Assembly (NCBI GenBank): GCA_019912395.1
Contig: JAIOIH010000040.1
Location: forward strand, 62,001 to 126,000
Source: Flavobacteriales bacterium
GTDB lineage: Bacteria > Bacteroidota > Bacteroidia > Flavobacteriales_F > PHOS-HE28
DNA length: 64,000 nt
Direction of reading: 5' to 3'
The first letter of the stretch is position 1, and each line of letters starts with the position of its first letter. The translations under genes and the position numbers were made by a program. Under the pieces are notes generated by a model. The model worked only from the letters and a program-made list of their open reading frames with translations. It was not told the DNA's origin and made no database searches. Shown piece by piece: positions 31,423 to 33,955 of this stretch.

Positions 31423-32811
31423 CTATCTGTGTTGAGCGGTCTCCAGTGCCTTCAACCGTTGTTCCAATTGCGTTTGTCTCTCCTCCAATTGCAGGATGTA
31501 CAGCGCCTGCTCCTCCACCACTTTCAACATGCGGGCTTGGAGGTCGCCCACTTCCACGCCTTGCTTGGCCTCCAATTCGGCGGCGGAGGGGATGCCGGGC
31601 AGGTGCTTGTTGATGCGGAGGTATTGGCGCATCGCATCCATGGGCATCAGCGCATAGTTGGGCTGGAACACATAGTCCGGCCAATCACCCATCTTCACCA
31701 GTACATCGCGGCACACGATGCCATCCTCCACGAAGAGGCGGTAATCACCTACCGCACCACTAGGGGGGTTGGTGCCGATACCCACCGCGCCATTGCGGGT
31801 GATGCGCATGCGCTGTTCGCCGTTGGTGACAATGTTCAAGTCCATGTTGCTCAAGGTGCCCAACACGGGCCGAGGTTCGTTGGGGCAGAGATGGGTGAAG
31901 TCATTCCCAATGGTCAGCCAAAAGGGTCTCGAACTCATCAAAAAGCATTTGGATGGTGGCCAGACGGGAAGGTCGGGACCTACCCCCATTTTTAGGGTAC
32001 CGTCGTAATCACGATACAACGGACCTGTAGTGGTGTCCGCACCCCAAAGACCAATGCCTCCATTGCTCATTATCCTCAGTCGCTCTTGCCCATTGCTCTT
32101 GAGCACCACATCCTTATTGTCCGGCGTACCGATGTATTGCGGACCGGGCGTGGTACCGGGGTTCCCGCTCATGCTCCAATCGCTGCGGTCGGGGCCGCGC
32201 AGGTAGATGGTGGTGGAAGTACCCGCGCATCCATTGGCATCGGCGGCGGTGATCTTATAGTCCTTGGCGGCGAGATTGTAGCGATCTGCACCGATCGGGC
32301 CGTCGCTCCAAGTGATCGTAAAGGGTGGCGCACCACCCAGCACGACCACGGATGCATTCCCATTGCTGCATTGGTAACAGCTAATGTTGTAACCGTTCGA
32401 GTACTCATAGACGTCCACATCCAGTTTCATGGCCAAGGGCTGGTCCAAGGTGACCTCCTTTGTCACCCGCTGCCCGTCGTTGTCCAGCACATCCACCTTG
32501 TAGTAACCGGCGGCAAGCTCCGTGAGGTCCTGGTCGTTGGAGCCATTGCTCCATTCGTAGTGGTATGGCGGCTGACCGCCACTCACGGAGAGGTCGATCC
32601 AGCCATCCTTACTTCCGAAGCAACTGACCTGATAGCCATTGTAATTGCTGACCTGAAGCGAGACCACGAGGGTGTCAGCGGCGCTGGTGGAGATGCCCGA
32701 CAAGATCATGAACGCGAGAACATTCCGTCGTAAGAACTTTCCTTGTTCCGGCAAAAAGCAACGCTTAAAATGAGCTGTAGGTGAATGTGAAGGGTGGTAT
32801 AATGGGCTCAT
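31423..32811 (-). CDS. Secreted protein with two SprB-type repeats and a C-terminal coiled coil
   Basis: 462 residues. Two SprB-like repeats (about residues 55-115 and 125-185; VSCFGSKDGWIDLSVSGG and ISCYQCSNGNASVVVLGG) resemble the repeats of the flavobacterial gliding adhesin. The middle reads like a trimeric fibre head (GIGLWGADTTTG, AVGIGTNPPSGAVGDYRLFVEDG). The end (LRINKHLPGIPSAAELEAK, then a coiled coil of about 35 residues) matches many phage tail-fibre or intramolecular-chaperone-like Bacteroidota proteins. No sorting domain is seen. The start is uncertain: the hydrophobic leader lies at residues 24-44 and only the ATG at 32811 covers it. First gene of the unit, opposite an XRE regulator. 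Confidence 0.72.
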   Translation of the reverse strand: MSPLYHPSHSPTAHFKRCFLPEQGKFLRRNVLAFMILSGISTSAADTLVVSLQVSNYNGYQVSCFGSKDGWIDLSVSGGQPPYHYEWSNGSNDQDLTELAAGYYKVDVLDNDGQRVTKEVTLDQPLAMKLDVDVYEYSNGYNISCYQCSNGNASVVVLGGAPPFTITWSDGPIGADRYNLAAKDYKITAADANGCAGTSTTIYLRGPDRSDWSMSGNPGTTPGPQYIGTPDNKDVVLKSNGQERLRIMSNGGIGLWGADTTTGPLYRDYDGTLKMGVGPDLPVWPPSKCFLMSSRPFWLTIGNDFTHLCPNEPRPVLGTLSNMDLNIVTNGEQRMRITRNGAVGIGTNPPSGAVGDYRLFVEDGIVCRDVLVKMGDWPDYVFQPNYALMPMDAMRQYLRINKHLPGIPSAAELEAKQGVEVGDLQARMLKVVEEQALYILQLEERQTQLEQRLKALETAQHR

Positions 32812-32891
32812 GGCGGTACATTATTGGTTGGCAGGTATGGAATGAACGACCCGGACAAAAGGATCCACTCCCAAATACATTACCAAACCAC

Positions 32892-32928
32892 TTTTTGCAT
32901 AACTGCATGCATTTTTTGCATAGCTTCG
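32892..32928 (+). promoter_or_regulatory. Phased TTTTTGCATA repeats and -7 box upstream of the XRE regulator
   Basis: TTTTTGCATA occurs at 32892-32901 and 32913-32922, 21 bases apart, about two helical turns. The palindrome TGCATGCA lies between them at 32904-32911. The second copy overlaps TAGCTTCG (32921-32928), one change from TAnnTTTG. The layout fits an operator over a promoter for the regulator at 32946 and possibly the divergent genes. Binding is inferred. Confidence 0.5.
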
Positions 32929-32945
32929 ATTCAAACCCTACCGCC

Positions 32946-33335
32946 ATGCTTCACCAAAAAATCCGCCAGTTGCGTGAGCAGCACCATTTACGCGATGAGG
33001 ACATGGCCGAACGGCTGTGTATGTCACAAAGTGCATATAGCAGGCTCGAAACGGGCGTGACCAAGATGGACGTGGAGCGGTTGCGAAAGATCGCCGAGGT
33101 ACTGGAGGTTCAGCTGGATGACCTGTTCATCCCGGTACTGGGCGCTATTCAGCCGGATACGAGCGGGCAAGAGTCCGTGTTTGCCGATCCAACGCCGAGG
33201 TCAAGCAGGCAGGCACTTCTGCAAAGGATCGTGGACCTGTATACGGAGCAGATGGAGGAGGTGCAGGCCGTGAATGCCCGCTATGCCCGGATGACCGTGC
33301 GTATTCTGGCATTGCTGAGGAAGGCTGAGGGATAG
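32946..33335 (+). CDS. XRE-family helix-turn-helix regulator
   Basis: 129 residues. The helix-turn-helix spans about residues 5-60 (LREQHHLRDEDMAERLCMSQSAYSRLETG), as in Cro/CI-type repressors. The rest ends in a possible coiled coil (VDLYTEQMEEVQAVNARYARM). The ATG at 32946 was chosen because it begins the domain and lies after the promoter-like repeat. It is divergent from the secreted-protein unit at 26.8-32.8 kb, a common place for a gene that controls its neighbours. Target and signal are unknown. Confidence 0.85.
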   Translation: MLHQKIRQLREQHHLRDEDMAERLCMSQSAYSRLETGVTKMDVERLRKIAEVLEVQLDDLFIPVLGAIQPDTSGQESVFADPTPRSSRQALLQRIVDLYTEQMEEVQAVNARYARMTVRILALLRKAEG

Positions 33336-33475
33336 GATTGCAAGTGGTACCGCGCAGCGTGCTGCAGATGCCTATGCGGGCTTGCCTACCGTAGATGCGG
33401 ATCGCTTTGTAGTGCGGGGATAGGGAAGTATACTTCTATCAATTCCATTCCCGCCAGAACCCGGTTCTTTGCACC

Positions 33476-33955
33476 ATGGCTTCTCCCCCGAAAAAGATCC
33501 TGCTTGTTTGCCTCGGCAACATCTGCCGCTCGCCCATGGCCGAGGGGCTGCTGCGCGAAATGGCCAAGCAGCGCGGGCTCCGGATACGGACCGATTCCGC
33601 CGGCACGGGCGATTCGCACATCGGCCAAGCGCCGGACCCCCGTGCCCAGACCGAAATGCGCAGGCATGGCATCCGCATCAGCGACCTGCGTGCCCGGCAA
33701 TTCACCCGCGCCGATTTTGAACGCTTCGACCTGCTGCTGGCGATGGACCAGCATAACCTGAGGGATATGCAGCGCCTCGCACCCTCGCCGGAACTGGCGG
33801 CCAAGGCGCGCTTGATGCTGGACTGGTCCTCCGACCGCAAGGGCGGTGATGTCCCGGACCCTTGGTATGGTGGAAGCGAAGGCTTCGGCCCGGTACACAA
33901 CATGCTGAGGGAGGCCCTTGAAACGCTGCTGGACGAATTGGAGCATGCAGGCTGA
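33476..33955 (+). CDS. Low-molecular-weight protein-tyrosine-phosphatase
   Basis: 159 residues. The P-loop CLGNICRS contains the nucleophile Cys12 and Arg18, and the general-acid aspartate is in DPWYGG near residue 127. The enzyme removes phosphate from tyrosines; bacterial targets include exopolysaccharide kinases, none of which is seen here. It overlaps the next gene by 11 bases, so the two are likely translated together. A TTCTTTGC sequence lies just upstream. Confidence 0.92.
   Translation: MASPPKKILLVCLGNICRSPMAEGLLREMAKQRGLRIRTDSAGTGDSHIGQAPDPRAQTEMRRHGIRISDLRARQFTRADFERFDLLLAMDQHNLRDMQRLAPSPELAAKARLMLDWSSDRKGGDVPDPWYGGSEGFGPVHNMLREALETLLDELEHAG

Follow-up and report, generated by a model that had tools for sequence, protein, structure and literature searches.

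A Conserved Tandem Repeat Upstream of an XRE-Family Gene Is a Probable Autoregulatory Operator Array in a Flavobacteriales Bacterium

A repeated block that precedes a gene for an XRE-family regulator in the window (the whole stretch of DNA that was analysed, 64,000 nucleotides) is most probably an autoregulatory operator array of the protein encoded just downstream and, as far as can be judged from sequence, perhaps also controls the neighbouring, divergent surface-protein gene. We observed the block itself, its conservation at the level of DNA, its association with the XRE gene and with the recognition helix of the XRE protein, and a pitch of 20-21 bp that recurs at other XRE genes. As a repeated predicted operator, which overlaps the predicted promoter of its own gene and is conserved at orthologues, the block would belong to the class of tandem operators of autoregulated XRE genes; for specific, cooperative binding by the encoded protein the helix and the pitch are indirect indications.

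Results

The Repeat Pair and the Putative Operators

The decamer TTTTTGCATA was found twice on the plus strand, 21 bp from start to start. A sequence-only reading had placed the two copies two helical turns apart on the same DNA face and the downstream one across a -7-like box, TAGCTTCG; both the pitch and the overlap are borne out by the positions (Table 1). The decamers lie within a longer direct repeat of 16 nt with 14 of 16 bases identical, and the palindrome TGCATGCA (32904-32911) is half of a dyad, TGCA-N8-TGCA. This dyad, made up of copy 1 and the palindrome, a weaker third copy and the divergent surface-protein gene go beyond that earlier reading. As dyads, O2 and O0 are poor.

Table 1. 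Features of the predicted operator array and of the flanking genes, with positions in the window.
Feature	Position	Strand	Remark
Candidate divergent -7 box	32856..32863	-	conserved CAAAnnRA; CAAAAGGA from 32856, TCCTTTTG on the other strand
O0, weak third copy TACATTACCAAACCAC	32876..32891	+	ungapped alignment of five loci; 20 bp upstream of O1
16-nt direct repeat, copy 1	32889..32904	+	holds TTTTTGCATA at 32892-32901
O1, putative dyad operator TGCATAACTGCATGCA	32896..32911		TGCA-N8-TGCA; right half within TGCATGCA
16-nt direct repeat, copy 2	32910..32925	+	holds TTTTTGCATA at 32913-32922
O2, putative second operator	32917..32932	+	one clear half-site, TGCATA, entering the -7-like box
TAGCTTCG, candidate xre -7 box	32921..32928	+	5 of 6 specified bases of TAnnTTTG
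XRE-family regulator, 129 aa	32946..33335	+	ATG at 32946; HTH_3 at residues 6-60
Divergent SprB-repeat protein, 462 aa	31423..32811	-	PF13573, E 8.4e-19

In the 4.13-Mb genome TTTTTGCATA occurs four times, two being the pair in the window; the remaining two, judged by sight, lie at the end of a gene and in a terminator-like hairpin, and the pair spaced by 21 bp is a single occurrence. Dinucleotide shuffles of the 134-nt intergenic region produced an exact 10-mer pair at a lag of 10-40 in 6 of 1000 cases and an equally good 16-mer repeat in 1 of 300. Exact 10-mer pairs at lags of 10-30 number 16 in the whole 64-kb window, at nine places, with the TTTTTGCATA pair among them, so the repeat by itself is not decisive; its conservation makes it so.

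The start context of both divergent genes contains TACCGCCATG, at 32809-32818 and 32939-32948, which form a perfect 10-nt inverted repeat.

Conservation at XRE Genes of the Same Genus

Relatives of the XRE protein were sought in 98 genomes and found at E<=1e-8 in 10, nine of them of the same genus. Within the genus sample (45 genomes, own included) the gene is patchy, with matches at E<=1e-8 in 9 of 45 genomes, making 10 loci; more distant XRE genes of the genus, in G008, G020, G022 and G032, were picked up by the alignment search alone. A lack of conservation near orthologues would have refuted the sequence-only reading, which proposed cooperative binding of the XRE protein; conservation was found, and that reading is supported as far as sequence can tell: the element is present at six of the 10 loci, the window counted, and its 21-bp pitch is kept at five further XRE genes (G043, G031, G006, G017 and contig 14 of G002). 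These five relatives share an ungapped layout of YGCA-N8-TGCR, 5 bp, TGCAT and then a TAnnTT box, with YGCA-N8-TGCR at the place that matches O1 of the window. The third copy is clearer, as YGCATAWCCAACCC, in G043, G031/G006 and G017; the window and G002 have it in degenerate form. At G017 (L009/L019) the operator block is intact but the XRE frame is broken about 90 residues in, which may reflect a pseudogene or an assembly error.

When 32856-32925 was divided into seven 10-nt blocks, six of them showed a pairwise identity of 0.58-0.71, and the remaining one (32866-32875), with 0.27, was not conserved; identity was 0.42 in 32926-32935 and 0.19-0.35 further out. Between the window and each of four relatives, 41 of the 71 core positions agree, compared with 15-23 of 70 positions in the upstream flank. 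The alignments omit L007 (G006), its 200-nt upstream region being identical to that of L006 (G031). Leave-one-out matrices of 41 nt, built like the alignment from five loci chosen for showing the element, gave 35.9 bits for the window site, with a runner-up of 16.0 in 64 kb, and 25.9-43.7 bits for the four relatives, whose own loci otherwise reach no more than 10.7 and the window no more than 16.9.

Model R1 reached at least 57 bits in 6 of 45 family genomes, always at an XRE gene, five of these six genomes having been training sequences and G006 having an upstream region identical to that of G031. Among the sites listed (E<=1) no other exceeded 17.2 bits, and R1 found no second strong site in the own genome. 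The exact pair at a spacing of 21 was found in the window only among the 45 family genomes; since relatives carry TTCC or TTTC for TTTT, the exact pattern is too strict, and matrices were used instead. Upstream of nine more distant XRE genes the two-copy element was not found by eye, and two of the more distant genes (L022 and L023) have single dyads.

The XRE Protein and Its Recognition Helix

The protein matches PF01381 with E 5.7e-15 (55.5 bits, cut-off 23), which identifies a Cro/C1-type HTH, and its predicted helices (residues 2-12, 17-23, 28-36, 43-53 and 57-60) form the five-helix arrangement of this type. In a structure model of fair quality, made as a monomer (pLDDT 75, pTM 0.41, linker below 50), the HTH of residues 2-60 is followed by a low-confidence linker and a long C-terminal helix (85-128). 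DdrO, SinR, P22 c2, 434 Cro, C.BclI and C.AhdI are near folds of this model; by sequence, the nearest solved structure is that of DdrO. An identity as RstR phage repressor (NF041951) was rejected, at 41.2 bits and a curated cut-off of 80. Models of type II antitoxins (HipB/MqsA/PezA-like) scored far under their cut-offs on the XRE protein. The own genome holds two weak XRE paralogues, with 27% and 38% identity.

All genus loci that carry the element encode the recognition helix SQS[AT]YSR, and the helix is SPSTYQR in G002a, EPSAYNR in G018 and RQNSYSL in G024 and G041, where the element is absent. G002a and G018 were scored apart, and G024 and G041 by model R1 and by eye. The G002a protein is 42-46% identical, yet its gene lacks the element. 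Neither the G002a nor the G018 XRE promoter yielded a site with the element matrix: the best score at the G002a locus was 7.4 bits, and the maximum at the G018 locus, 15.2 bits, lay about 600 nt away from the XRE gene. G018 has a repeat of its own, TGCGTTGTGTGCAA/TGCGTTCTGTGCAA, at lag 20, with a TTGC-N7-GCAA dyad.

Outside the genus, a TGCA/GCAT dyad was found upstream of 3 of 13 XRE genes with the same helix and of 3 of 87 others (p 0.028), so that a link between helix and dyad beyond the genus is only suggestive. At a Chryseobacterium locus (L022), GCATAATTTATGC lies between a TACCTTTG box and the start.

Promoter Elements and the Divergent Gene

Promoters of this group of bacteria are of the -33/-7 type, and a scan of 32700-33480 for sigma-70 promoters and terminators found none. 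The sigma-A -7 consensus of Flavobacterium psychrophilum is given as TAnnTTTG (PMC9723704). This exact motif stands upstream of 3 of 20 genes in the window, shuffles giving an expectation of 0.135. TAGCTTCG departs from it, and of 20 other window genes none is preceded by the TAnnTTCG form. A clearly conserved -33 box of xre was not found in the aligned loci.

The conserved block begins with CAAAAGGA and runs out on TAGCTTCG. On the divergent side, TCCTTTTG is an imperfect candidate box that agrees with TAnnTTTG at 5 of its 6 specified bases, and a CAAA at 32884-32887, 20 bp from it, is a candidate -33 box. In the five aligned loci columns A3-A5 and A9 of CAAAnnRA are invariant, and identity is 0.69 in 32856-32865 versus 0.32 just outside. 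We consider TCCTTTTG and CAAA together a candidate promoter of the divergent gene.

The divergent SprB-repeat protein is presumably located at the surface. Such a gene is divergent to the XRE gene at five of the eight loci read (the window, G002 contig 14, G006, G031 and G017); the divergent protein has no Pfam match in G043 and G018 and is a DNA methylase in G002a. The downstream neighbour of xre is a phosphatase-like ORF, named by sight. At E<=1e-20, 40 of 45 genomes have SprB-repeat matches, many of which are partial or lie in giant proteins.

Near the starts of SprB-repeat paralogues, poly-G/C runs of 7-19 were seen at 21 of 39 loci examined (L067, L068, L070-L074, L076, L079-L081, L083, L085, L086, L090 and L099-L104). 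The span examined began 400 nt upstream of the mature start and ended 60 nt downstream of it, and was below 200 nt at three loci; L073 and L103 are one place, and L067 is XRE-linked. As a background, runs of at least 7 number four in the 64-kb window and five in 34.7 kb of XRE loci. Several copies with a tract have no in-frame upstream ATG, and the same holds for the tract-free L069, L075 and L096 (among the matches listed). From their sequences, the tracts of this family look like slipped-strand phase variation. The SprB-repeat copy beside the XRE gene of G002 also has a C8 tract. A literature search found no paper on the SprB repeat with phase variation or helix-turn-helix, and the titles and abstract openings retrieved on homopolymer phase variation (10 of 100 in one case) describe no such system.

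A Pitch of 20-21 bp Upstream of XRE Genes in Bacteroidia

For direct repeats, 86 upstream regions of XRE-family genes were analysed (L110-L197, among the matches listed; 88 minus two near-duplicates), several of which come from one genome (e.g., G328 and G319). In these 86 regions among the matches listed, which include the 28 loci where the peak was first noticed, the combined z peaked at lag 20 (9.5), was still 4.9 at lag 21 and did not exceed 2.7 at lags 10-19 and 22-40. Control genes were drawn from 20-kb stretches in 20 of these genomes; of 311, we kept the 178 with at least 80 nt free upstream, a filter that was applied to the controls and not to the XRE set. A repeat of at least 11 of 14 bases at lag 20/21 was present in 26 of the 86 XRE regions (among the matches listed) versus a fraction of 0.08 of the 178 controls, and at lag 25/26 in 0.02 of either set. 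The mean z at lag 20 was 1.01 versus 0.20 (Mann-Whitney p 1.7e-6), and 2000 draws of 86 controls reached a maximum of 5.5. No strong repeat at lag 20/21 was found in 60 of the 86 regions. The controls (n=178) show a small excess at lags 18-21, with a combined z of 1.7-3.0, so the lag signal may in part be a general promoter property. The repeat sequences differ from locus to locus, as is expected if every regulator has its own operator.

Discussion

Proposed Mechanism and Alternatives

From the arrangement of the sites we infer how the protein would bind, cooperate and fill the sites in turn, and that it would repress its own gene and control the divergent one. XRE dimers would bind sites of about 16 bp that lie 20-21 bp apart, a spacing that would put neighbouring dimers on one face of the DNA, able to touch. 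The strong dyad O1 would most likely be occupied first, and a dimer on O2, covering the xre -7 box, would lead to autorepression; by analogy with C.Esp1396I, the dimers on O1 and O2 would help each other in closing the xre promoter. A dimer on O0 would cover CAAA, the -33 candidate of the divergent SprB-repeat gene, and may similarly close that promoter, so that both genes would probably be set by one array.

By another analogy, the array might activate first and repress later, with an upstream dimer recruiting RNA polymerase and the filling of O2 then repressing, which would make a delayed or bistable switch. We regard this as rather unlikely, even with a fold like that of C.AhdI and C.BclI, with O1 at about the place of the xre -33 box and O2 on the -7 box, with no good conserved -33 box in relatives, as expected of an activated promoter, and with a DNA methylase gene adjoining the relative in G002a. 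The long C-terminal helix, which short C proteins are not known to have, counts against it, and O1, the better dyad, also spans the -33 candidate region, so that a dimer on it may do no more than block.

That another, global regulator binds the block and controls both the regulator gene and the surface-protein gene is less probable still. Binding by the XRE protein is a prediction, and the divergent gene is common to five of the eight loci as well; against this, the block was found at XRE loci only, despite SprB-repeat matches in 40 of the 45 genomes, and within the genus it is missing or different where the XRE recognition helix differs. A chance repeat in an AT-rich intergenic region, or merely the -33/-7 boxes of two promoters, would agree with the 10-mer pairs (lag 10-30) at eight other places of the window and with the control excess at lags 18-21, but is highly improbable given the conservation of the same pitch in relatives and a pair that is unique in the genome. 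Equally improbable is a coding element with the true XRE start further up: the open XRE frame does extend upstream in the window (ORF from 32781) and in several relatives, but the element is separated from the ATG by 50, 55, 57, 56 and 49 nt at the five aligned loci, so that it stands in varying frames to the ATG, the read-through peptides are unlike among loci and G017 has a stop; the variation in frame means that DNA, and no peptide, is what is conserved.

Comparison With Known Systems

The predicted autoregulatory array resembles those of lambdoid repressors (CI/Cro, 434, P22 c2), which share the Cro/C1-family HTH, with P22 c2 and 434 Cro as near folds; lambdoid operators consist of several tandem dyads of similar size that lie between divergent promoters. 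Unlike these phage systems, the array has a chromosomal setting, a pitch of 20-21 bp and a surface-protein partner gene, and the window XRE has a linker and a long C-terminal helix where lambdoid repressors have a peptidase-like C-domain. DdrO and SinR-type repressors, compared here as proteins, are similar in that DdrO is closest by sequence and DdrO and SinR-DNA are among the closest folds, and differ in that the match is mostly to the HTH, the C-terminal part being different.

The C proteins of restriction-modification systems (C.Esp1396I, C.Csp231I) are likewise small HTH proteins with two operators upstream of their own gene. A dimer of C.Esp1396I bound at OL raises the affinity for OR by two orders of magnitude (PMC3758141), and the C.Csp231I site is described as a 5-N5-5 dyad, with sites separated by 18 bp compared with about 4 bp for other C proteins (PMC4321490). 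The window, in contrast, has 5 bp between its 16-bp sites, and its core is TGCA, whereas C proteins have GACT/AGTC or CTAAG. A role as restriction-modification controller was rejected, the adjacent genes being the SprB-repeat and phosphatase-like ones and a methylase neighbour being present at G002a only, among the adjacent genes read. The titles and abstract openings retrieved on XRE autorepression or direct-repeat operators in Bacteroidetes/Flavobacter describe no such system.

Tandem XRE operators are an ordinary, known type of switch; the points of interest here are the pitch of 20-21 bp as a wider regularity and the recurrent surface-protein partner, which hints that surface variation is under regulation. 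For a regulator whose target was unknown, in a genus of environmental Flavobacteriales, an operator, a partner gene and a mechanism can now be predicted, and the lag signal suggests a simple operator prediction for the large XRE family. A joint reading of these sequences, which we put forward as speculative and doubtful, is that a portable cassette of XRE gene and operator takes over single surface-protein copies, the two-turn architecture being common to the small XREs of Bacteroidia. Many paralogues may then be switched by slippage and a few be placed under a divergent XRE as a bistable, tunable switch; and since the operator sequence would drift with the recognition helix, operators could be read from genomes without experiments.

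Two further arrangements were seen at other XRE genes. At L131, also of Bacteroidia, dense TGCA dyads (TGCATACAGTGCA, TGCAAAAAAATTGCA and TGCACGGTATGCA, lag 20) lie about 75-110 nt upstream of the XRE gene, even though the recognition helix is a different one. Three loci, L027, L030 and L034 (Thermoflexibacter and two Cytophagales), share roughly GTGGGTAAnTnTAAnCAAAATTnGGGTATGAAA at and just upstream of a probable XRE start, perhaps another conserved operator or leader.
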